Source of the DNA: Maridesulfovibrio ferrireducens
GTDB taxonomy: Bacteria > Desulfobacterota > Desulfovibrionia > Desulfovibrionales > Desulfovibrionaceae
Reading direction: 5' to 3'
Length of the DNA: 64,000 nucleotides
Assembly: GCF_016342405.1 (NCBI RefSeq)
Contig: NZ_JAEINN010000004.1
Span: forward strand, 1-64,000
Position 1 is the first letter of the stretch. The number at the start of each line of letters is the position of its first letter. Of this stretch, positions 43,734 to 59,149 are shown piece after piece. The translations under genes and the position numbers were made by a program. A model generated the notes under the pieces. That model saw only the letters and a list, made by a program, of their open reading frames with translations. It did not search any database and was not told the DNA's origin.

Positions 43734-46700
43734 TTGTTTTTTAATTCTTTAAGTAAAAGCCGCATTTTTAAAATGCTGAAACACGGGATGTATGTAGTTG
43801 TGCTCTCGATGTTTTTTTTGTCCGTTTCGGCAAAAAAATTATACTGTGCCCAAGTTCAAGATAATAAAAAATCTTATGCCGTTTTTAGCGGCGATAAAGT
43901 TCGGTATGCACAAAATCCACGTTCTGGAAATGTTCAGAAAACTTCTTCCGGGAATGAATCCTCTCAAAGTAAGTTTAGGAATAAGGCTGATCCGGCATTG
44001 GATTTCAGCGTTTTGGGTGAAGTTGTCATTCTTTTGCTGTTTGTCATTCTGTTAATATTTTTTTGGAATCGTAAGCTTTTTAAGTTGAATCAGATTTTAA
44101 ATGAAGAAGTTGCGCAGCGCAGAAGGATGGAGAGTGTTCAGAGTTCACTGTACCGTATAACTCTTGCTGTTACGGAAGTCTCGGGCATGGAAGAGTTTTA
44201 TTCTATAGTACAAAAACATATTAACGAGTTTATGTATGCTCGTAATTTTTATATTGCTTTTTATGACCAAGAAAAGGATGTGCTTAGCTTTCCTTATTTT
44301 ACTGAAGACGTGGAGCCTATTCCTCCTCCAAGGTCTCTCGCAAAGGGTTTTACAGATTATGTGATAAGAACAGGTACTCCTTTGCTGGCGGACAGACGTA
44401 AACAGGCTGAGCTTATCTCGCTCGGTGAGCTGGAGATAATTGGAGCTCCTTCGGTTGTATGGCTCGGAGTTCCTCTTATCCATGAGGGGCGCACTATAGG
44501 TGTTTTAGCTGTGCAAAGTTATGATGAGTCGGAAATTTTAGATGAAGGGGATTTAGATATTCTCTTGTTTCTTTCTCCTTATGTCGGAATTGCGTTTGAC
44601 CGGCTTCAATTGCATGAGCAGGCCCGTTTGAAAGCCTTGGCTTTACAAGAAAGTGAAGAGCGATTCAGGACTCTTTTTGAAGAATCATCTGATGCTGTAG
44701 TTTTAATAGATAATGAGCTTATCGTTCAGTGTAACCGGGCCGCCTATAAACTTCTGCACATGAATTCAAGTTCAGAGCTGATAGGCTTAAGCCCGAAAGA
44801 GGCGGGGCCTGAGTATCAGCCTGACGGAAGTTCTTCTTTGGAAAAGTTTCGCCGTATTGCAGGAGAGTGTTTGCTCAATGGGGCAGATCGTTTTGAGTGG
44901 ATTCTAAAAAAAGCTGACGGCGAGGTTTTTCCGGTTGAAGTTTTGCTCACCCCGATCATGTATAAAGGGAAAAATATACTCCACGTTGTCTGGCGTGATA
45001 TTACAGAAAGAAAAAAAGCAGAAGAAGCTTTAATTGAACGGGAAGTAAAATATAGAGCTCTTTTTGATTATGCGAATGATGCAATTGTTTTAATGGATTT
45101 AAACGGCAATTTCGTGAGTGCCAACCCGGAAGCTCTCTCCATGTTCCGTTGTCACTCGGAAGAGGAATTTAAATATCTTTCGCCGGCAAATCTTATGCCT
45201 AAAATGCAACCGGATGGGGTTTCTTCTGTTGTTTCTTTTGCAGCACATATTCAAACTGCACTTGAGTCAGGAAGTCTGGAGTATGAGGGAGTAGGTAAAC
45301 GTATAGATGGGGGAGAGTTCTACGTTAATGTTCGAATTCGCCCTCTCGTAGTTAATGGAAAAACTCTTTTGCTTGGGACACTCCGTGATATTACCGAAAA
45401 AAGAGCCAGTCGCGCGGAAATTGAACGCTCTGTTTCATTGCTTACCGCAACAATAGAATCCTCAGCTGATGGTATTTTGGCGGTTGACGGATACGGACTG
45501 GTTGTCGCGTGGAACAGTCGGTTTGCCAATATGTGGGATATTCCTGAGCAATTTTTAAATGATGGAATCGTAACCGATATTTTTGGGCTTATTCTTGATC
45601 TGGTGGAAGGTCCAAAGTCGGCAAGCGACAAAATATGGAACTTTCCATTTGAGTCTGAACCGAATCATGTCGATGAATTTATTCTGAAAGATGGAAGGAT
45701 TATTGAAAGATATTCAAATTCTCAGCGCATTGGTTCCGAAGTAGTAGGGAGGGTTTGGAACTTTAGAGATGTGACAGATAGGCGTAAAAGTGAAAAGGCT
45801 TTGGAAGAATCATATCGTCGCTTAAATGATATAATTGAATTTTTGCCTGACCCTACGATGGTTGTCGATGCCGAAGGAGTCCTTGTCGCATGGAATAAAG
45901 CCATGGAGGATGTTACGGGAGTGTCGAAGGAGAATATGGTAGGTAAAGGCAATTATGAATATGCGTTACCTTTTTATGGAGTTCGTAAACCTATTCTGCT
46001 CAACTGGGCCATTGATGCAGAAGAAGCTATCCCTTCGGATATGTACGAATATGTTCAGCGTAAGGGAAATGTGTTGTTTGGAGAGGTTTATGCGCCAAAA
46101 GTTTTTGGAGGAGAAGGTGCGTATTTTTGGGGCGTGGCTTGTCCACTCCGTGATGCTTCAGGGAAGATTTATGGCGGGATAGAATGTTTGCGTAATGTTA
46201 CTGATCGCCGCCGAGTTGCAAGAGAACTTAATCGGGCCAAGTTGGACGCAGAAGCTGCGACCCGTGCCAAATCTGAATTTTTGGCAAATATGAGCCATGA
46301 AATACGGACTCCGATGAACAGCATCATCGGACTTGGGCATCTGGTATTAAATTCTATTCTTGATACTACTCAGCGGGAGTGTCTGGAAAAAATGATGTCT
46401 TCAGCTGATTCTTTGCTTTCGATTATTGATGAGATTCTTGACTTTTCAAAAATTGAAGCAGGCAAACTTGTGCTGGAAAATACCGAGTTTGCGCTTGATA
46501 ATGTTCTTGATAAACTTTGCAATCTGGTTGCAATTAAGGCTGAACAGAAAGGTCTGGATTTTGTTTTATCAGTTGCTCCTGATGTTCCGCATCGCATAAT
46601 AGGTGATCCTCTTCGTTTGGGACAAATTCTTACAAATCTTACGAATAATGCAATAAAATTTACAAAGGAAGGAGAGGTTTCACTTCTTATTTCCTGTGTT

Positions 46701-48476
46701 GGTGAATGTCATAATCCGTCCGATATTTGTCTTAAATTTATTGTCCGGGATAGCGGGATAGGGCTAAGTAAAGAAGAAATAGAAGAATTATTTAAATCTT
46801 TTAGTCAGGCAGATGCTTCAACTACCCGCAAATTCGGAGGGACCGGATTAGGGCTTGCTATATCAAAAAGCCTCGTCAATTTGATGGGTGGGGCTATAAG
46901 CGTTGAAAGTCAGCCGGGTTTAGGAAGTTCTTTTGAGTTTGATATAAATTTTATAAATGCTGAAACTCAGCCCAGTCTGATTATGCCTTCCAGCACTCAC
47001 GGAATGAGAGTTCTCGTAATCGATGAGAACAGTACTTCGAGAGAGTTTCTCGGGGCATGGCTTAAGTATTTATCTTTTGATGTCGTTTTAGAATCTTCTA
47101 CTGATTCAGGTATTGATCAATTACAATCAGATTGGGCCGACGGCGCGAAAACAGATTTAATTATTATGGATTATAATCCTCTTCATACGGATGGTTTTGA
47201 AGAAGTTGCTTTGATCCGGTCTCTTCCTGATTTAATTGATATTCCAATTGTCATGATGATTCCTGTCGGGGTGGGAGAAGATGTTCGTAAACAAGCGTCG
47301 CTTAGCGGAGTAAATGGGTTTATTTCTAAACCTGTGACACGAGTTTCTTTGTATCAGTCTGTTAAAGCTGCATTCAAATTTGATACGGACCTAAAAAAAG
47401 ATTCATCTGTTTGGAATAATATGCAGAACATCTCCGGGGTTAAACGGCGTAAAATCAAGGCTCTTTTGGTTGAAGATAATAAACTTAACCAGTACGTGGC
47501 AACAAAGATGCTTGAAAGTTTTGGAATCGGCGTGACTGTTGCTGAAAATGGGCGCCAGGCTTTGGATGCTTTGTGGTCCGCTCCGTATGATATTGTATTA
47601 ATGGATATTCAGATGCCTGAGATGGATGGGCTTACCGCTACACGGATAATCCGTTCGGATGAGCACTATAAAGATCTGCCTATTTTAGCAATGACAGCTC
47701 ATGCCATGCCGGGTGATCTCGAAAAAAGTTTAGAAGCCGGTATGAATGAACACATAACTAAGCCTATATCTCCCGTAACTCTTTTAGATGTTTTGAAAAA
47801 GTATATTAAATCAACTGCTTTTAGTTATGTTCCCATCAGCGGCGGAGAAGAGCAGGATGGTATAGATATTCCTGAAGTTCCGGGAATTGATATTGTAAAA
47901 GGACTAAGTAATGTCGGGGGTAATAAAAAAGGGTATCTTCGAGTTTTGAAGGGATTCAGACATTATTACGGGAACTTTGCTGATGATTTAAAAATGTTGA
48001 TTGATAATTCTGAATTTGAAAAAGCCGCAATTAAAATTCATTCTCTTAAAGGGGTAAGTGGTAATGTCGGAGCACAGCATCTTTATGAATTATGTCGGAT
48101 TATCGAGGGTGAAATTCATGAATTTGATGAAGACAGAATGGCTTCTTCTTTAAAGCTATTTGCTTCAGAGCTGTTGAAAATCATTAAGGGATTAAGTGTG
48201 TTGCCTGGTGCTTATAAAAGTGAAAACAATGAATATATAAATGATAAAGATAAAAGTTTTGAGCTTATAAATGAATTATATAAACTTCTTAAAGAAGGAG
48301 ATGCCGATTCTTATGACGTGCTTGAAGAATTGGTAAGATTTCTTGATCCTGAACAGTTTGAGGGACAGCTTCAAAAGTTGACGCAGCATATTGATAACTT
48401 GGATTTTGATGAGTGCTGCTTGGTTTTGGAAAAAATTGCAGCAGAACTTGGTATCACTCTTAGAAAAAGGTCATGA
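43734..48476 (+). CDS. Multi-domain hybrid sensor kinase (GAF-4xPAS-HisKA-HATPase-2xREC-HPt)
   Basis: The 1580-residue membrane kinase starts at TTG 43734 with AGGGAG 5 bases upstream. Two hydrophobic segments (about 16-36 and 100-120) flank a short periplasmic loop. Then come a GAF domain (about 140-300), four PAS domains (about 310-815), HisKA with ANMSHEIRTPMN (about 850), HATPase (DSGIGLS, GGTGLGLAI), a first receiver (about 1095-1215, Asp in IIMDYNP), a second receiver (about 1240-1360, VLMDIQMPEMDG) and an HPt domain with HSLKGVSGNVGA (about 1450). This is a complete internal phosphorelay. Its natural output is the diguanylate cyclase encoded one base downstream. Confidence 0.92.
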   Translation: MFFNSLSKSRIFKMLKHGMYVVVLSMFFLSVSAKKLYCAQVQDNKKSYAVFSGDKVRYAQNPRSGNVQKTSSGNESSQSKFRNKADPALDFSVLGEVVILLLFVILLIFFWNRKLFKLNQILNEEVAQRRRMESVQSSLYRITLAVTEVSGMEEFYSIVQKHINEFMYARNFYIAFYDQEKDVLSFPYFTEDVEPIPPPRSLAKGFTDYVIRTGTPLLADRRKQAELISLGELEIIGAPSVVWLGVPLIHEGRTIGVLAVQSYDESEILDEGDLDILLFLSPYVGIAFDRLQLHEQARLKALALQESEERFRTLFEESSDAVVLIDNELIVQCNRAAYKLLHMNSSSELIGLSPKEAGPEYQPDGSSSLEKFRRIAGECLLNGADRFEWILKKADGEVFPVEVLLTPIMYKGKNILHVVWRDITERKKAEEALIEREVKYRALFDYANDAIVLMDLNGNFVSANPEALSMFRCHSEEEFKYLSPANLMPKMQPDGVSSVVSFAAHIQTALESGSLEYEGVGKRIDGGEFYVNVRIRPLVVNGKTLLLGTLRDITEKRASRAEIERSVSLLTATIESSADGILAVDGYGLVVAWNSRFANMWDIPEQFLNDGIVTDIFGLILDLVEGPKSASDKIWNFPFESEPNHVDEFILKDGRIIERYSNSQRIGSEVVGRVWNFRDVTDRRKSEKALEESYRRLNDIIEFLPDPTMVVDAEGVLVAWNKAMEDVTGVSKENMVGKGNYEYALPFYGVRKPILLNWAIDAEEAIPSDMYEYVQRKGNVLFGEVYAPKVFGGEGAYFWGVACPLRDASGKIYGGIECLRNVTDRRRVARELNRAKLDAEAATRAKSEFLANMSHEIRTPMNSIIGLGHLVLNSILDTTQRECLEKMMSSADSLLSIIDEILDFSKIEAGKLVLENTEFALDNVLDKLCNLVAIKAEQKGLDFVLSVAPDVPHRIIGDPLRLGQILTNLTNNAIKFTKEGEVSLLISCVGECHNPSDICLKFIVRDSGIGLSKEEIEELFKSFSQADASTTRKFGGTGLGLAISKSLVNLMGGAISVESQPGLGSSFEFDINFINAETQPSLIMPSSTHGMRVLVIDENSTSREFLGAWLKYLSFDVVLESSTDSGIDQLQSDWADGAKTDLIIMDYNPLHTDGFEEVALIRSLPDLIDIPIVMMIPVGVGEDVRKQASLSGVNGFISKPVTRVSLYQSVKAAFKFDTDLKKDSSVWNNMQNISGVKRRKIKALLVEDNKLNQYVATKMLESFGIGVTVAENGRQALDALWSAPYDIVLMDIQMPEMDGLTATRIIRSDEHYKDLPILAMTAHAMPGDLEKSLEAGMNEHITKPISPVTLLDVLKKYIKSTAFSYVPISGGEEQDGIDIPEVPGIDIVKGLSNVGGNKKGYLRVLKGFRHYYGNFADDLKMLIDNSEFEKAAIKIHSLKGVSGNVGAQHLYELCRIIEGEIHEFDEDRMASSLKLFASELLKIIKGLSVLPGAYKSENNEYINDKDKSFELINELYKLLKEGDADSYDVLEELVRFLDPEQFEGQLQKLTQHIDNLDFDECCLVLEKIAAELGITLRKRS

Positions 48477-48477
48477 A

Positions 48478-49389
48478 ATGGATGAAAAAGCAAAAATTTT
48501 AGTTGTGGATGATGAGCGCCTGAACCTCAATGTTCTTGCTGACTTATTACGGCAGGACTATAAAGTTATACTGGCAAAAAATGCTAATCAGGCTTTAGAT
48601 CGTATAAATGCGGAGTTTCCTCCCGACCTTATTTTGCTTGATGTGGTTATGCCGGAAATGGACGGCTATGCTTTGCTGCATAAGATTAAAGAGCAGGAAT
48701 TATCTAAAAATATTCCGGTTATTTTCATAACAGCTCTTGATTCAAAGCAGGACGAAGCTCGCGGGCTGGAAATGGGCGCTGTTGATTACATTCATAAGCC
48801 TTTTCATCCGTCCATTGTAAAAGCCAGAATTAAGAATCACCTCATAATTTCCAGACAGCGAAAACTCCTTGAAGGATTAGCAAATCTTGACGGACTGACG
48901 GAGATGCCTAATCGTCGGAGTTTTGAAATTGCGGTGGAAAAAGAATGGCGTAGATGTCTGCGGTCAGGAGATGTAATCTCTCTTGCTATGCTGGATGTGG
49001 ATTGTTTTAAGCAGTACAACGATAACTATGGGCATGCTGCAGGTGATGAAGCTCTGAGAAACGTCGCCAATGTTCTTACTCGTGAGATAAAGCGTCCGGC
49101 TGATCTTGCAGCTCGTTTCGGAGGAGAGGAGTTTGTTATTCTGTTGCCGGAGACTGATGCTGAAGGAGCTAAATTTAAAGCAGAAAAGGTGCGCGCGGCG
49201 GTTGAGGCTTTACAAGTTGTTCATGGATTTTCTTCTGCGGGGCAATTCCTGACAGTCAGCATTGGCGGGGTAACGGTATCTCCTTCAATGTCGTCAAAGC
49301 CGCTGGATATGACTGTGGGGGCAGATTCTATGTTGTATGAAGCTAAACGCCGCGGTAGAAATATGGTTTTATGGACTGATCTGAGCTGA
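48478..49389 (+). CDS. Response regulator diguanylate cyclase (REC-GGDEF)
   Basis: The 303-residue protein starts at the ATG at 48478, one base after the kinase stop; a longer frame from 48391 is overlap. The receiver (about 5-120) has LLDVVMPEMDG with the phospho-acceptor Asp. The GGDEF domain (about 135-300) has the active motif FGGEEF and an I-site RPAD five residues before it, so c-di-GMP made here should feed back. Phosphotransfer from the HPt domain of the upstream kinase probably triggers dimerisation and activity. Confidence 0.93.
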   Translation: MDEKAKILVVDDERLNLNVLADLLRQDYKVILAKNANQALDRINAEFPPDLILLDVVMPEMDGYALLHKIKEQELSKNIPVIFITALDSKQDEARGLEMGAVDYIHKPFHPSIVKARIKNHLIISRQRKLLEGLANLDGLTEMPNRRSFEIAVEKEWRRCLRSGDVISLAMLDVDCFKQYNDNYGHAAGDEALRNVANVLTREIKRPADLAARFGGEEFVILLPETDAEGAKFKAEKVRAAVEALQVVHGFSSAGQFLTVSIGGVTVSPSMSSKPLDMTVGADSMLYEAKRRGRNMVLWTDLS

Positions 49390-49414: not shown

Positions 49415-52129
49415 TTAAAGATATTGTTCTTCAGGTTCCTGCGAACTGTCCGTAGGGAACCAGATGTTGAAGGATGTTCCTTCTCCTAAAGTACTTTCGC
49501 ACTCGATCCTTCCTTTTAGAGCTCTGGTCACAAGGTTGTATACTAGATGCATCCCCAGTCCCGTGCTGCCGGAGCTTCGCTTTGTAGTGTAAAAGGGATC
49601 ATATATTTTGAGTAGTTGTTCATTATCCATGCCTATCCCGTCATCTGAATATTTGAAAAGAATTCCATTACCGCTCTTTTTTGCTTCAATTGTTATTAAT
49701 CCTTGTTTGTTGTTCGGAAAAGCATGAGTCAGAGAGTTGGTTATAAGGTTCGAAATTACCAGCATGAGAGAGCCGGGAGAAATTGTGATATCGATGTCCT
49801 CAGGGCATTTTACTTCCAACGTGTGATTATGACCTTTAAGTTTGGGTTTCAGGGATATAAGTATTCCTTGGATATAATCCAGAAGATTAATATTTCGCAG
49901 GTCTTCTGATGACTGGTCTACAGCTAACTGTTTGAAGTCACTTATTAATTTTGCGGATCTGTCAAGGTTTTTCACAATGTTTATAAGCGCAACGGAACTC
50001 GTAGCGATATATTTTTCAAGGTCTGACTTTTTCAAGGAATTATCTGAAAATTGTGTTTGCAGATTGTCGGTTATTTCTTTCAAGTAGGAAGTTCCAGTTA
50101 CACCGATACCCAGTGGGGTATTTACTTCGTGCGCTATGCCTGCGACCAGTTCTCCCAGTGAGGCCATTTTTTCTGTTTCAACAAGTTTATTTTGGGTCTG
50201 GCGTAATTCATCCATTGATTTTACCAGAGCTGTGTTTGCATTCTCAAGTTCAATTGTCCGCATGGAAACTCTTTCCACCAGCTCCTTATTCATATGCTGG
50301 AGTGTGCTTTCTGCTTCTTTTATGCGGGTTATATCCATGGATATAGTAAGAATAGCCGGTGTATTAGTTGCTGTTGATGTATAGGGTACTTTTGTTGTTT
50401 CAAGCCAGTGTATATTTCTGTCCTTGTCCAGATAGCTTTCTTCGATTGAAAGCTTTTCATTTCGCTCTACAACTCTTTCGTTATCACCTAATATTCGTGT
50501 GACATCATCATGGTTATCTATGACTTCGGTTAAGTTTTTCCCGGTAATATTATCGGTGGATTTCTGCAGTCTTTCAGCTTTGTTTTCATTTACCAGAAGG
50601 AATTTGCCATGGATGTCATTTGCAAATATTTCTTGAGGAAGAAGATCAATAATTTGTCTAAGTCTAGCTTCGCTTTCAAGAGCTTTTTTTACCGCATTTT
50701 TGTTTTCAGTAATGTCCTGTCCCTGCAGCAATATGAAATTAGCTCTTCCATTCGGGTCCATTTTTACAGGTGAGAAAGTCCACGCAAAAAAAGGTTTCTC
50801 TCCTGATTTTGTCAGTATAGGTATTTCAACGATTGGTGGATTTTGTCCCGATGCGGCTCGCGCCAAGTATTGCTCCACATCTTGTGAATACTCGGGAGGG
50901 AAGAACTCTATCAGAGCATTTCCATGAAAATTTTTATGTGAAAATTTAGCCAGTTTTTCAGCGGCAGGATTCATATCCATAATTTTACCGTGAAGATCAC
51001 AGTTGATTATTGGAGCTTTGGCAGATGAAAAAAGTTTGGATATATATGTGCTTTTTTCATGTAGATTTTCAACCATTGTTTCAAGGGTTTCCCCTAGCTG
51101 GTTGAATTCCTTTACTTGTCCTTTTATAAAAGAAGCATCGCTGGTTCCTTTTACAACCGAATCAGCGTAATCAGTCAGTTTCTTTAGTGCTGTGAGAATT
51201 CGTTTTTGCATTATCCATGCAGTACTGAAAGAGAGTAGTATCGCAAGCGAGAGCATCATCCCCAAGCTTTTCATAAAACCCAGTTTAAGAGATTGAAATG
51301 AGGGGTTGATTCGTGAAAAACTGAAAAGCAAAGGGCTTTCAGCCTGATTCGAAAGTAGTTGTATTGTAGAAAATATGAGATTTTCTTTAACTACAAAATT
51401 TCCTGGCAAAGCATTATGGGCCCAGCTGATGAGCTCACTGATGGTTTCGCCGGAAGGATTGCTGGTGCTGATCAGTACTCTTTTTTTGCTTATCAGTACC
51501 GCGTCAATGGCGGAGGATGTTTTTTTTAAATTGTCTAAAAAAGAAACATTAGAATTTAAGTCGATCCCTCCATAAAGTATTCCAACAACTTCTCCGGTTT
51601 GATCATTGGTGACAGGTACAGCACAAACCAGAATTGTTTTAATATTGTCTCGTGTTCTGAATGATAAATGAGTCCACGTGGGTAATGTTGTAAGAGCATT
51701 TTTATGTTTTGTTTTGAGCTGAATGACAGGTATTTCAACAATTCCGGCATTAACCCAGCGCTCTCCCCCCTTGAATACGTCAAGAATATCCAAAAGATAT
51801 CCTTGTTTAGAACTTAGAAAGTTATATAATTGTTGTTCAATAAAATCTGAATCTCCTGTGACAAGCGCTCCCTTGAAGTCTGGAGATATTGATAATTCAA
51901 TTAAATCATCTTTTATATCCCCAAGAGTGTTATCCAGAGAAAGTCCTATAATACTTTCGGTTTTTTCAATATCAAGAGCCAGCTCATTTTCAAGGGTTGA
52001 TTTAGAGAGGTAAAAGGACCATGAAAAAATAAAAATTACCATAATAAGAAGCAGTCCAAGCATAGGAATGATTATTTGGGATGTAAGCCTGAGCGGGCCT
52101 TTCTTGAGAAGTTTGTTCAAGTTAATCAT
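49415..52129 (-). CDS. LuxQ-like membrane sensor histidine kinase
   Basis: The 904-residue kinase has a first transmembrane helix (about 20-42), a periplasmic domain of about 245 residues with PVTNDQTGEVVGILYGGIDL (a LuxQ-like stretch) and a second helix (about 288-310). HAMP, at least two PAS domains (about 365-610), a coiled coil, HisKA (GIAHEVNTPLGIGVTG) and HATPase (SDDGIGMD, GSTGLGMHL) follow. Unlike Vibrio LuxQ it has no receiver domain. It begins 3 bases after a gene for a LuxP-like binding protein, so its periplasmic domain probably docks to that protein and senses autoinducer-2 or a related sugar. Confidence 0.85.
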   Translation of the reverse strand: MINLNKLLKKGPLRLTSQIIIPMLGLLLIMVIFIFSWSFYLSKSTLENELALDIEKTESIIGLSLDNTLGDIKDDLIELSISPDFKGALVTGDSDFIEQQLYNFLSSKQGYLLDILDVFKGGERWVNAGIVEIPVIQLKTKHKNALTTLPTWTHLSFRTRDNIKTILVCAVPVTNDQTGEVVGILYGGIDLNSNVSFLDNLKKTSSAIDAVLISKKRVLISTSNPSGETISELISWAHNALPGNFVVKENLIFSTIQLLSNQAESPLLFSFSRINPSFQSLKLGFMKSLGMMLSLAILLSFSTAWIMQKRILTALKKLTDYADSVVKGTSDASFIKGQVKEFNQLGETLETMVENLHEKSTYISKLFSSAKAPIINCDLHGKIMDMNPAAEKLAKFSHKNFHGNALIEFFPPEYSQDVEQYLARAASGQNPPIVEIPILTKSGEKPFFAWTFSPVKMDPNGRANFILLQGQDITENKNAVKKALESEARLRQIIDLLPQEIFANDIHGKFLLVNENKAERLQKSTDNITGKNLTEVIDNHDDVTRILGDNERVVERNEKLSIEESYLDKDRNIHWLETTKVPYTSTATNTPAILTISMDITRIKEAESTLQHMNKELVERVSMRTIELENANTALVKSMDELRQTQNKLVETEKMASLGELVAGIAHEVNTPLGIGVTGTSYLKEITDNLQTQFSDNSLKKSDLEKYIATSSVALINIVKNLDRSAKLISDFKQLAVDQSSEDLRNINLLDYIQGILISLKPKLKGHNHTLEVKCPEDIDITISPGSLMLVISNLITNSLTHAFPNNKQGLITIEAKKSGNGILFKYSDDGIGMDNEQLLKIYDPFYTTKRSSGSTGLGMHLVYNLVTRALKGRIECESTLGEGTSFNIWFPTDSSQEPEEQYL

Positions 52130-52132
52130 AAA

Positions 52133-53257
52133 TTAATCCTCAGCACGTCCTGAGTAACGGAAACTTTTATTTTTTAGGAGGTCCAATTTTTGAGGATTGA
52201 TTCCTTTTTCTATAAGCTCAAGTCTACCTGAAAAAATAAGAGGTAATTTTTTAGATTCTCCTAACATATCAAGAATGACAGCGTCCGCCATTGCAACTCC
52301 ATTGTCATCGTTTATTCGCATTACAGTTACATCCATTTCTCCTTTCTGGATAGCCTTGAGTTCAGAAGATCCTCCCCCCCATCCGTTAACCATAATTTTC
52401 CCGATCATATTTTTTTTGCGGAGGGCCTCTATAGCTCCTAAGGCTATATCTGTAGAACAAGCGTAAATAAATTTTATGTCAGGATTTTTTTCAATGATAG
52501 CTAGAGTGGCAAGCCTTGCCTTTTCTTTATTTATTCCAGTTTGATAGACCGAAACAAGCTCAAGATTTGTATTGTTATCCATGTAAGAAACAAAAGTTTT
52601 CCCTCTTACTTCGCTGAGATATCCCGGGTCGGGAAGAAGTATTGCATAACGCCCGTTTCCATATGTTTTTTCAGCAAAATATTCAGCAAGCATTTGGGAG
52701 CCGGTTACATGGTCAAATCCAATATACATCATGGGTTGTTTGTCGGTCCATGCTTTAAGAGGTGTTGTTATGTTCTGGAGTATTATTTTAGGTTTGTTCT
52801 TAATTAAAAGAGGTTCAATCATTCTTTGATGTCTGAGGGTATCAATCGTGAAAATAAGATAATTCGGATCAGTTGCTAATGCTTCTTTGAAGACGGTATT
52901 CTGCTCGCGGAATGTTGCTGTGGGTTTTAAGAAAAAAGAGTGTATTTGAGGTGTGATGCCATGTTGCTTCAGACGTAAGAGAAAAGATTTACTGCTTCTG
53001 TTCCAGTAATCAGAAATCTGTTTGCCTGGATATACCATTGCGATCGAGACGGTTAAGTTTTTATTTAAGGGAGGAGGAGAGTCTTTTTTAATCAATTCAT
53101 TAAAATCAGTTGTTTTAGAAATTTCGTCTGAATTTAATTTATAAAAATCTTCAAGAAGATAGTAGTCTGCGGCCTTTGCTGTGGGAAGGTGTATAGCGCT
53201 AACCAGTAAGAATACTGTCAGTATTATGAAATAATAGTTTTTATATGATGAGCTCAT
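52133..53257 (-). CDS. luxP: LuxP-like periplasmic autoinducer-2 binding protein
   Basis: The 374-residue precursor has a signal peptide (ends AIHLPTAKA). Many stretches match Vibrio LuxP as I recall it: SIAMVYPGKQISDYWNRS, YLIFTIDTLRHQRMIEPLL, IILQNITTP, IYACSTDIALGAIEAL, NGWGGGSSELKAIQKGEMDV and a C-terminal FRYS. LuxP binds the furanosyl borate form of AI-2 and controls the kinase LuxQ. The adjacent kinase with a periplasmic domain completes the pair. Whether it binds AI-2 or another furanose cannot be told from sequence. No luxS was seen in the window. Confidence 0.85.
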   Translation of the reverse strand: MSSSYKNYYFIILTVFLLVSAIHLPTAKAADYYLLEDFYKLNSDEISKTTDFNELIKKDSPPPLNKNLTVSIAMVYPGKQISDYWNRSSKSFLLRLKQHGITPQIHSFFLKPTATFREQNTVFKEALATDPNYLIFTIDTLRHQRMIEPLLIKNKPKIILQNITTPLKAWTDKQPMMYIGFDHVTGSQMLAEYFAEKTYGNGRYAILLPDPGYLSEVRGKTFVSYMDNNTNLELVSVYQTGINKEKARLATLAIIEKNPDIKFIYACSTDIALGAIEALRKKNMIGKIMVNGWGGGSSELKAIQKGEMDVTVMRINDDNGVAMADAVILDMLGESKKLPLIFSGRLELIEKGINPQKLDLLKNKSFRYSGRAED

Positions 53258-53403: not shown

Positions 53404-54042
53404 TTATGAAGCGGTGCAGAGCCTGTTCTGCCGCTTAAGAACTGAAACGCCTAAGTAGACTAAGGGGGTGTCTAAAAGAGCTATGGCTGTTTTGGCCATC
53501 CATTGTCCCAGAATAATCTCCGTAACCGGTAAAATCCCGTAAAAAGCAATTGTCACGAAAATGGTAGAGTCTATCAACTGAGATGTGACCGTTGACAGGT
53601 TGTTTCTCAGCCATAAATGTTTTCCGTCCATTTTTTTACGAAGCAGGTGGAACAGCCAGACATCGTGAGTTTGGCTTACCGAGTATGCTATGAGAGATGC
53701 CAGCACAATTCTTGGAGTGTTTGCCAGCACACTGGCAAAGCCGTCCTGACCGTTCCAGAAAGGGGCCGGAGTCCAGTGAAGTGCCGCCCATGACAGGAAG
53801 ATGGCAGCTAAAAGTGCGATAAAGCCGCAGTGGATGACCTCATTTGCTCTTTCTTTTCCCCATATTTCGCTTATGATGTCAGAAGCGATGAAAGTTAGAG
53901 AATAGGCGAGGACTCCAGCTGGAGCGTAAAATCCGAAGATGCTGATTATCTTGGTAGATACTACAGCGGCTATGACAAGTGAGCTGATAAAAAGGCACGT
54001 AAGAAGAGTGAACGCTTTGCGTTCAAAGGTTGAGGAGAGCAT
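53404..54042 (-). CDS. yhhQ: Queuosine precursor transporter (YhhQ/VUT family)
   Basis: The 212-residue membrane protein has about six helices and the family segments VVSTKIISIFGF, YSLTFIASDIISEIWGKE and QTHDVWLFHLLR. Family members take up preQ0/preQ1 for queuosine in tRNA. It is divergent from queF, which acts on preQ0, giving strong pathway context. Its 5' leader contains a 63-base nested stem structure (54074-54136). Confidence 0.9.
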   Translation of the reverse strand: MLSSTFERKAFTLLTCLFISSLVIAAVVSTKIISIFGFYAPAGVLAYSLTFIASDIISEIWGKERANEVIHCGFIALLAAIFLSWAALHWTPAPFWNGQDGFASVLANTPRIVLASLIAYSVSQTHDVWLFHLLRKKMDGKHLWLRNNLSTVTSQLIDSTIFVTIAFYGILPVTEIILGQWMAKTAIALLDTPLVYLGVSVLKRQNRLCTAS

Positions 54043-54343
54043 TATATTCCCTTGTGTTGATGGTTCTTGTCATGAAGCAGAGTCTGCCCGATACGAGCAA
54101 AAGGGAGAAAGTCCCGCATCTCGACAGTTCTGCTTCGGGGCCTGAAATTCTTTTCGGAGAGAAGGGTTGCCAGCATTGCAACAAAAAGTCAAAATAGAAA
54201 AACAGTCTTGTTTCGTTTCTTTTCGGTGGTTATACGGAGTTTTCTTTTAAGTCATAAGCTGTTATCTGCTCACGGCTTTCAACATTAAAAATAAATAAAA
54301 ATCAGCTTTGCGCTGAATGAGTATAAAATTACGGGGATTTGTT
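54043..54343. other. Divergent region between yhhQ and queF
   Basis: There is no gene in these 301 bases. Besides the structured yhhQ leader there is a small hairpin TCAGC-TTTGC-GCTGA near 54301-54315 before queF. I could not fit either to the known preQ1 riboswitch consensus patterns. Confidence 0.45.
54074..54136 (-). ncRNA. Structured 5' leader of the queuosine transporter gene, candidate regulatory RNA
   Basis: GAAGCAGA (54074-54081) and TCTGCTTC (54129-54136) form a perfect 8-bp closing stem. Nested inside are CGAG/CTCG and GGG/CCC helices. The element ends 31 bases before the yhhQ start, within the expected 5' untranslated region. It does not match preQ1 class I, whose pseudoknot needs a short A-rich tail. 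Function is inferred only from position and structure. Confidence 0.4.
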
Positions 54344-54847
54344 ATGAAAACGACTAAAAGCCAAGACAAGACTGATGCATTGAAAACTCTCGGAAAGGGA
54401 GGCGCCACCAATTATAACTATGATTCTCCCAGTCCTGAAATTCTTGAGATCTTTCCGAATAATTTCCCGGGCAGGCCCTATATCATAAGCATAGAATTTC
54501 CTGAGTACACTTCGCCTTGTCCTGTAACCGGACAGCCTGACTTTGCGAATATCATCGTGGAATATATTCCTGACGAAGTGTGCGTTGAATCCAAAAGTTT
54601 TAAGCTTTACATGGGGGCATACCGCAATCATCAGTCTTTTATGGAAACAATTACCAATAATATTCTGGATGATTTTGTCAGCCGTCTTTCTCCACTGTGG
54701 ATGAGAGTTAAAGGTATTTTTTCTCCGCGCGGCGGTACGTGTCTTCACGTTTTTGCAGAGCATTACAACGAAGACAGCACACAGTTTGTAAAGGTCTGTG
54801 ATATTGTCCACGAGTGGAAAATCGAGTCTGGAAGACACCGTTCATAA
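54344..54847 (+). CDS. queF: NADPH-dependent 7-cyano-7-deazaguanine reductase
   Basis: The protein has 167 residues from the ATG at 54344, preceded by GGGG; the longer frame from 54317 has no good ribosome site. It reduces preQ0 to preQ1 in queuosine synthesis. The substrate-binding motif EFPEYTSPCPVTGQPDFA contains the catalytic Cys, and the QueF signature ESKSFKLYMGAYRNH is intact. Its length matches the single-domain (YkvM) type. A 9-bp inverted repeat ACCGTTCAT/ATGAACGGT (54837-54864) overlaps the stop and may end the transcript. Confidence 0.95.
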   Translation: MKTTKSQDKTDALKTLGKGGATNYNYDSPSPEILEIFPNNFPGRPYIISIEFPEYTSPCPVTGQPDFANIIVEYIPDEVCVESKSFKLYMGAYRNHQSFMETITNNILDDFVSRLSPLWMRVKGIFSPRGGTCLHVFAEHYNEDSTQFVKVCDIVHEWKIESGRHRS

Positions 54848-57907: not shown

Positions 57908-59149
57908 GTGGAAAAAGTTTTAATAGTCGATGCCAGCAAGGTTACAGCTCTTTTTATAAAAAGGACTTTGGAACATGCCAGTTTTGAATGTGATACTGCA
58001 CATAGCTTAGAACAGGCCGCTGAGTTGATCTCACAAAACGAATATTTTGTAGGGCTCAGCAGTTTGATTTATGAAGGGCATGAAGCTGGTGACGGGATTG
58101 ATTTATTAACTGCAAATGGAATTCCTGCCATTGTGGTAACCGCCTCTCTTGATGATAATCAGCTCAAAGATATTCTAAAAAAGAATATAGTTGATTATGT
58201 CCTTAAAAGGCCTGAGCATTCGGAATATATAGTCCGTATAGTTAAGCGTGTTTTCAATAATAGAAAAACCAAGGTCATGGTGGTGGAGGATTCCATTACT
58301 GTGCGTCATTGGATTTCAGCTGTTTTAATACGGCAGGGTCTTACCGTGCTTGAAGCGGCAAATGGTGAGGAAGCGTGTAAAATTTTTGCCGATAATCCCG
58401 ATATAAAGCTGGTCTTGACAGATTATACCATGCCGGGGATGGATGGTCGGGAGTTGACTGCAAAATTGAGACTTCGTCGTCATATGGATGAACTCAGTAT
58501 TATTGTTCTTTCCTCTGATGAAAATTCCCGAACAGCACCGCTTTTTTTGAAAACCGGAGCAAATGACTTTATCCATAAGAGTGCAAGTGTCGAAGAGATT
58601 CTGTGCAGGGTTAATTCGAACTTGGAAATGCTGGAATTGCTCGAAGAATCACGTGACAGAGCAAATAAAGATTTTCTTACCGGGATGTGGAATAGGCGTT
58701 ATTTCTTCGAGCATGCAGAGCCTCTGTTTGTTGAAGCTGAAGATAATGACAAGTTGTTGAGTATTGTTATGCTTGATATTGATCATTTTAAAAACGTAAA
58801 TGATACTTACGGTCATGATGTCGGTGATTTAGTTCTAAAAGAATTTTCATCTAAGATTGTTGAATATTTCGGGTCCAGAGGGCTTGCCTCCCGATTCGGT
58901 GGCGAAGAGTTTGCGGTTCTTCTTGAGGGTGTAGATTCAGCCGCGCTTGAAAGTTATGTGGATGGTTTCAGGGAAATGATAGAAGCTTTTTCCATGTACT
59001 GTAGGCATGAAAAACTTAAATTTACCGTTTCCATCGGAGTTACTTCAAATGTAAAACTCGGTCTGGACGGAATGATTAACAGGGCTGACATTCTTTTATA
59101 TGAAGCTAAAACTTCCGGAAGAAATAAGGTCGTTTGCGATCCACTATAG
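57908..59149 (+). CDS. Two-receiver diguanylate cyclase (pseudo-REC, REC, GGDEF)
   Basis: The 413-residue protein starts at GTG 57908. The first receiver-like domain (about 3-118) lacks the phospho-acceptor Asp: the strand reads FVGLSSLIYEG, so it is a pseudo-receiver. The second (about 120-240) is complete, with VLTDYTMPGMDG. The GGDEF domain (about 255-410) has an intact FGGEEF motif but no RxxD I-site at the usual place, so product inhibition is not expected. It resembles PleD in layout. Its partner kinase is not adjacent. A ComFB gene follows after 112 bases. Confidence 0.92.
   Translation: MEKVLIVDASKVTALFIKRTLEHASFECDTAHSLEQAAELISQNEYFVGLSSLIYEGHEAGDGIDLLTANGIPAIVVTASLDDNQLKDILKKNIVDYVLKRPEHSEYIVRIVKRVFNNRKTKVMVVEDSITVRHWISAVLIRQGLTVLEAANGEEACKIFADNPDIKLVLTDYTMPGMDGRELTAKLRLRRHMDELSIIVLSSDENSRTAPLFLKTGANDFIHKSASVEEILCRVNSNLEMLELLEESRDRANKDFLTGMWNRRYFFEHAEPLFVEAEDNDKLLSIVMLDIDHFKNVNDTYGHDVGDLVLKEFSSKIVEYFGSRGLASRFGGEEFAVLLEGVDSAALESYVDGFREMIEAFSMYCRHEKLKFTVSIGVTSNVKLGLDGMINRADILLYEAKTSGRNKVVCDPL

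Follow-up and report, generated by a model that had tools for sequence, protein, structure and literature searches.

Whether autoinducer-2 (AI-2) is a signal or a metabolic by-product is a long-running question. The described proteins closest to the locus presented here are the periplasmic binding protein LuxP of Vibrio harveyi (1JX6, 2HJ9) and the membrane kinase LuxQ of Vibrio (2HJE, 3C38; NCBIfam NF041947), both of the LuxS/LuxPQ/LuxU/LuxO circuit. We describe a LuxP/LuxQ-type pair encoded at positions 49415-53257 of a 64,000-nucleotide stretch of DNA from Maridesulfovibrio ferrireducens (contig NZ_JAEINN010000004.1, positions 1 to 64,000; hereafter the window). As with V. harveyi LuxP, the binding protein is predicted to have the LuxP fold, carries the AI-2 hydrogen-bonding residues and is encoded directly upstream of a luxQ-type gene, but its Maridesulfovibrio host is without luxS. 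The kinase shares with Vibrio LuxQ the LuxQ-periplasm domain, the predicted fold of that domain and its place as a membrane kinase after luxP; unlike LuxQ it has no receiver domain, and it scores far under the curated LuxQ cut-off. We consider it probable that the pair serves as an AI-2 receptor of the LuxPQ type with which the host listens but does not signal.

Published accounts of LuxP in Desulfovibrio go back to 2008, when homologues were reported from luxS-negative Desulfovibrio, Desulfuromonas and Oceanospirillales, some of them beside PAS-domain regulators, and signal recognition without luxS was called conceivable for some bacteria (PMC2561040). The deltaproteobacterial cases resemble the present one in lacking luxS and, in Desulfuromonas, in the adjoining PAS-domain gene, but no luxQ was found there beside Dde_3311. 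Matches to LuxP, LuxQ and LuxS were later tabulated for Desulfovibrio, and a V. harveyi-like system was inferred in D. hydrothermalis (PMC5187520, 2016); the LuxQ matches given there differ from ours in covering 31 % of the query. LuxP has also been stated to be exclusive to Vibrio (PMC12503165). Within the portions of the open-access literature searched, we found no description of a luxS-less clade, a luxP remnant, a range of outputs on the LuxQ periplasmic domain or an orphaned LuxQ. The new part seems to be the listen-only clade, the orphaned LuxQ and the varied outputs.

The receptor pair and its pocket

The pair comprises the following features, the luxP stop codon and the ATG of the kinase gene being separated by 3 bases:

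52133..53257, minus strand: luxP-type gene for a periplasmic binding protein of 374 residues (Peripla_BP_4 at residues 72-326; N-terminal signal-like segment recognised by eye)
49415..52129, minus strand: luxQ-type membrane histidine kinase of 904 residues without a receiver domain (Pfam domains and motifs)
51428..52006, minus strand: LuxQ-periplasm domain PF09308, kinase residues 42-234 (57.6 bits, cut-off 25.7)
50699..51031, minus strand: best of the two matching PAS_4 stretches of the kinase, residues 367-477 (Pfam)
49451..49771, minus strand: HATPase_c domain of the kinase, residues 787-893 (Pfam)

A previous reading of the DNA letters (the sequence-only reading) had proposed a LuxP/LuxQ-like receptor pair at this place, and the proposal was borne out: both genes lie where they had been put, and the LuxP match is far beyond chance. 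The stretches VYPGKQISDYWNR, LQNITTP and NGWGGGSSELKAIQKGEMDV, quoted there as LuxP-like, are all present in the translation, which is 44 % identical to V. harveyi LuxP across 323 aligned residues. When compared with the sequences of the PDB, LuxP chains were matched with 302 bits (E 3e-89, residues 44-370), and the next family, a sugar-binding protein, with E 3e-13. An AlphaFold model of the protein reached a mean predicted local distance difference test score (pLDDT) of 91.2 from a 44-sequence alignment, and its best eight PDB structure matches were LuxP chains (E 6e-39 to 2e-35; next match 1e-18).

For the kinase, Pfam gave the LuxQ-periplasm, PAS and HATPase_c domains, while HisKA, at 22.1 bits, stayed under its cut-off of 26.9. 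The motifs of a histidine kinase were found as an H-box, GIAHEVNTPL, at residue 664, an N-box-like NLITNSLTHA at 794 and DDGIGM at 829. When the periplasmic region alone was searched against the PDB with phmmer, LuxQ chains were the only matches below E 0.001 (best 7.5e-5), and the six best PDB matches of its model (pLDDT 92.2, 47-sequence alignment) were LuxQ periplasmic chains; the LuxQ-sized periplasmic domain proposed earlier is thus confirmed as a PF09308 match with a LuxQ periplasmic fold in the model. Response_reg had no Pfam match anywhere in the 904 residues, which supports the earlier view that the LuxQ receiver is lacking and that the relay therefore differs from the LuxU/LuxO path.

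Seven residues of V. harveyi LuxP hydrogen-bond AI-2 in 1JX6, namely Q77, S79, W82, N159, R215, T266 and R310 (PMC9687752). All seven are identical in the window LuxP, as Q80, S82, W85, N162, R218, T269 and R314, and W289 of the V. harveyi protein is likewise identical. The sequence-only reading had named the pocket as the place where its proposal could fail, and the presence of all seven residues favours it. We infer that AI-2 is the likely ligand.

Two other origins of the pair were considered. A chance or mis-called pair was rejected, given the LuxP, LuxQ and gene-neighbour scans of relatives, and a binding protein for sugar transport was judged unlikely from the LuxP-like sequence, the structure matches and the pocket, and from the lack of an ABC-transporter gene among the Pfam-scanned window neighbours, although a Vut_1 transporter gene adjoins luxP. 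The complex XylFII-LytSN has xylose as its ligand. It is similar to the present pair in that, according to its entry title (5XSJ), a sugar-type binding protein is complexed with a sensor-kinase domain; it differs in that its binding protein is 17 % identical to the window LuxP, a much weaker match than the LuxP chains.

Loss of luxS in the genus and listening only

The search for luxS that had been suggested with the first proposal was run, and the window genome, rated 100 % complete, had no PF02664 match, whereas the same search was positive in 5 of 14 control genomes. With luxS absent, the system would therefore be a listen-only one. SahH, the other route for S-adenosylhomocysteine, is present in the window genome, and so it was in 20 of 20 genomes examined, indicating that luxS is not required for recycling. 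The presumption that the host is a sulfate reducer is supported by dsrA (603 bits) on the contig that carries luxPQ.

According to the mechanism that we propose, periplasmic LuxP would bind the AI-2 of other bacteria in its borated form (S-THMF-borate) and dock on the periplasmic domain of the LuxQ-type kinase, with which it is presumably co-transcribed in one operon. Binding of AI-2 would alter the activity of the kinase. Lacking a receiver, the kinase would need no LuxU: instead of using a LuxQ-receiver/LuxU/LuxO relay, it would signal directly to a separate response regulator. A species keeping an apparently constrained receptor after loss of the synthase would use AI-2 as a cue from others.

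The family sample held 199 genomes, 16 of them from the window genus (sampled genomes carry G labels, G000 being the window genome). Within the genus, LuxP was found in 12 genomes, the LuxQ periplasmic domain in 15 and luxS in 9. All three occurred together in 8 of the 16, and LuxPQ without luxS in four (G000, G165, G007 and G074). G048 has luxS and LuxQ and no LuxP, G093 and G157 have LuxQ alone, and G105 has none of the three; when G048, G093, G105 and G157 were searched again for LuxP at E 0.001, none was found. With members that have luxS and LuxPQ, LuxPQ alone, luxS and LuxQ, LuxQ alone or none of them, the genus offers a ready-made natural experiment. In the family sample outside the genus, LuxP was found in four genomes, all without luxS, two of which have LuxQ (G045, G002) and two do not (G128, G116). 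The system is sporadic, as LuxP was found in only 2 of 395 genomes of a phylum sample, the window genome included.

A pfs-like PF01048 nucleosidase gene immediately precedes luxS in each of the nine luxS-positive members of the genus. By counting rather than by tracing on a tree, each of these nine has five PF01048 matches and each of the seven luxS-less members four, so that by count the extra pfs-like copy found beside luxS in relatives is also missing from the window genome. G000, G165, G007, G074, G093 and G157 form one clade with an ultrafast-bootstrap support of 100, both in a SahH tree and in a tree of SahH and Vut_1, and the sister of this luxS-less clade is the luxS-positive G172. LuxPQ was retained in four of the six species, and in two luxP was lost and luxQ retained. 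The simplest reading is a single loss of pfs-luxS at the base of the clade and a further loss in G105, although alternative histories with gains are possible. As a separate observation, nine members of the genus have a pfs-luxS pair (L141-L149) as well as SahH; the two being redundant, AI-2 production may be kept there for its own sake.

Outputs of LuxQ-type proteins

LuxP loci elsewhere were compared using the best 80 of 266 relatives from a genome collection, to which the window and 13 loci from its family were added (94 loci). Three of these end before the next gene, leaving 91 with the next gene at least partly visible. Neighbouring domains were labelled with home-made profiles seeded from the window proteins, complemented by a six-frame search; ten neighbours were checked with Pfam, and seven of them had PF09308. 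A LuxQ-periplasm gene was directly downstream of luxP in 85 of the 91 loci and was not found there in 6. Among the 85 proteins, 31 were plain kinases and 36 were hybrid kinases with a receiver, 2 more hybrid kinases being split into two frames; 12 were fused to GGDEF and 1 to a SpoIIE phosphatase, 1 consisted of the periplasmic part only, and 2 were truncated by a contig end. The GGDEF cases scanned with Pfam, L053 and L062, had EAL as well. The phosphatase case (L033:11224-13461) consists of LuxP followed by a LuxQ-periplasm/PAS/SpoIIE phosphatase protein.

On balance, we favour the view that LuxP and the LuxQ periplasmic domain form an exchangeable AI-2 sensing front end used on kinases, hybrid kinases, c-di-GMP (cyclic di-GMP) enzymes and a SpoIIE phosphatase, and that a single genus spans the range from talking and listening (pfs-luxS and LuxPQ) through listening only (LuxPQ) to a deaf kinase, with LuxP deleted and the LuxQ kinase domain conserved. 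If the outputs are exchangeable, candidates for AI-2 sensing far beyond Vibrio, including in sulfate reducers, can be recognised by LuxP beside a LuxQ periplasmic domain. Two Motilimonas genomes each had two LuxP genes on a contig (L072, L092, L090, L110), with no LuxQ-periplasm gene adjoining any of them.

For the window pair itself, the sequence-only reading had offered a nearby hybrid kinase and diguanylate cyclase as the output. These are encoded by the following genes:

48478..49389, plus strand: REC-GGDEF response regulator, convergent with the kinase gene, 303 residues from an inner start (the open reading frame can begin at 48391; Pfam)
43734..48476, plus strand: hybrid kinase with GAF, PAS repeats, HisKA-HATPase, two REC and Hpt (Pfam)

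It is possible, though we regard it as unlikely, that the REC-GGDEF protein is the target of LuxQ, in which case AI-2 would set the level of c-di-GMP and the hybrid kinase would feed the same output. Its gene adjoins luxQ in 12 of the 15 luxQ loci of the genus; however, all 15 loci have the unrelated Vut_1 gene too, even those where luxP has been lost, so this adjacency is weak evidence. Elsewhere, 12 of the 91 loci encode a fusion of the LuxQ periplasmic domain with GGDEF, and in Motiliproteus (L056, 8536 onwards) LuxP, a LuxQ kinase, a REC protein and a REC-GGDEF protein follow in a row on one strand. A link from AI-2 to c-di-GMP is also known from the two-component system AsrK-AsrR of Vibrio furnissii (PMC11796354), which is similar to the suggested output in acting on c-di-GMP but different in that AI-2 is bound unborated by the dCache domain of AsrK itself, with no LuxP. 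Against such an output, the search of 11 genomes at E 1e-60 found no REC-GGDEF ortholog in G172 and G179, which both have LuxPQ, and did find one in G105, where LuxP and LuxQ are both missing. Furthermore, the open reading frame overlaps the 3' end of the hybrid-kinase gene, and the two probably form an operon separate from luxPQ. With this mismatch in occurrence and this overlap, the earlier suggestion was not supported: the REC-GGDEF protein is a neighbour and not an obligate partner of LuxPQ.

The Motiliproteus row at L056 is in its own right a candidate AI-2 to c-di-GMP operon. In the window, a second response regulator gene (57908-59149, plus strand) encodes two receivers and GGDEF, resembling PleD/CbrR, and is also near luxQ in the three LuxP-less relatives examined. 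Beside luxP are the Vut_1 transporter gene (53404-54042, minus strand) and a QueF-like gene (54317-54847, plus strand).

The natural ligand and the fate of the receptor genes

The pair may be real and its natural ligand nevertheless not LuxS-made AI-2; another borate-stabilised pentulose-like compound from the habitat (a formose-type sugar, xylulose or an MHF-like furanone) would be an alternative, which we consider quite improbable. LuxP is not restricted to AI-2. According to PDB entry titles (4yr7, 4yp9) it also takes borate esters of other sugars, the V. harveyi protein having been crystallised with 1-deoxy-L-xylulofuranose-borate and a formose-derived analogue, and V. harveyi LuxP responds to L-xylosone and L-xylulose (PMC12921845). 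As other borated sugars fit LuxP, the pocket does not prove AI-2 to be the natural ligand. In addition, luxS is missing from the window genome and from 30 of 50 other LuxP-bearing genomes searched. It was found in 20 of these 50, including five of five Vibrio/Thaumasiovibrio and five of five Arcobacter-like hosts, the absences being soft because several hosts are metagenome bins.

Conservation of the pocket was assessed across the 94 loci, where W82, N159, R215, T266, W289 and R310 were invariant and Q77 and S79 were kept in 92 and 93, respectively. This count has some circularity, since Q77, S79 and W82, or N159, were part of the scan patterns; only R215, T266, W289 and R310 are free of this selection. 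Averaged over the LuxP domain, the commonest residue had a frequency of 0.62. In the sugar-binding protein 2ioy, as judged by eye from the alignment, the positions of T266, W289 and R310 are occupied by D, F and Q. Besides the circularity and the other borate esters, two further results weigh against our interpretation of the pair as a LuxPQ-type AI-2 receptor: nearby residues outside the seven vary (D136 is kept in 85 and S265 in 76 of the 94), and the kinase scored 207.8 bits, the curated NCBIfam cut-off for LuxQ_Vibrio (NF041947) being 1200.

Two results nevertheless argue for AI-2 and against another habitat compound. Eight relatives in the same genus have LuxP, LuxQ and the pfs-luxS pair as well as SahH, which suggests a shared AI-2 ancestry, and the pocket is no looser in luxS-less hosts, since the only three of the 94 LuxP proteins with changes among the seven residues (L022, L039, L048) are all from luxS-positive hosts. 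In addition, a study that predicted 267 LuxP proteins reports AI-2 binding outside Vibrio for three sensory domains picked from them at random, from Proteobacteria and Deferribacterota (PMC12268683). In L022 and L048 the position of Q77 is occupied by E, with the remaining six listed residues intact.

The fate of the receptor genes after loss of luxS could be followed in the genus. G093 and G157 have a full-length luxQ but, between the same neighbours, no luxP. Their leader retains about 75 % identity with that of the window, over 102 and 74 bases, and a remnant of the start of luxP was detected in the intergenic region with E 6e-4 in G093 and only 0.088 in G157. In G048 luxP is gone with no traces of leader or remnant.

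Where luxP has been kept without luxS, it seems to be constrained, judging from substitutions: for the pair G007/G074 the nonsynonymous rate (dN) was 0.067 and the synonymous rate (dS) 0.71 (dN/dS about 0.09), and for G000/G165 they were 0.012 and 0.07. For LuxQ of the same partnered pairs, dN/dS was 0.10 in the periplasmic and 0.071 in the kinase domain (G007/G074) and 0.17 and 0.14 (G000/G165), and two luxS-positive pairs gave 0.03-0.04 and 0.05. The orphan pair G093/G157 gave 0.29 for the periplasmic domain and 0.057 for the kinase domain. With G007 as the outgroup, changes in the periplasmic domain unique to the orphan outnumbered those unique to G000 by 50:11 (G157, p 5e-7) and 37:10 (G093, p 1e-4), whereas in the kinase domain they were even (10:11 and 9:12); G165 as the partnered comparator with G074 as the outgroup behaved alike. 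The cytoplasmic PAS region of the orphans was faster too (29:10, p 0.003; 24:7, p 0.003), so that the effect extends beyond the periplasm. The contrast between periplasm and kinase vanished when G172 was the outgroup (Fisher p 0.59 and 1.0). Ratios of periplasmic to kinase change were 5.06 and 5.64 on the orphan tips and 2.71 both on the orphan stem and in G048, but were also high on partnered branches (G179 3.15, G165 3.01, G000 2.54) and reached 8.67 on one short internal branch.

Taken at this strength, the comparisons are only suggestive of a periplasmic domain that evolves faster in orphan LuxQ than in its partnered sisters, with no such change in the kinase domain. A faster orphan periplasmic domain would fit, though not in an airtight way, a domain whose job was holding LuxP. 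Many sequences, also partnered ones, did not match strict text patterns for the later boxes of the kinase, and neither G093 nor G157 matched the DDG pattern; the case for a functional orphan kinase is therefore one of overall conservation (83 % identity to G000).

The absence of luxS from the six-species clade and the loss of luxP in two of the six, with its intergenic remnant, might suggest that the window pair is what is left of a former AI-2 circuit in decay. This is very improbable, since luxP and luxQ are open and full-length in the other four members, the luxS-less pair G007/G074 has the low ratios given above for both luxP and the LuxQ periplasmic domain, and the window kinase has its H-box, N-box-like and DDGIGM motifs all in place.

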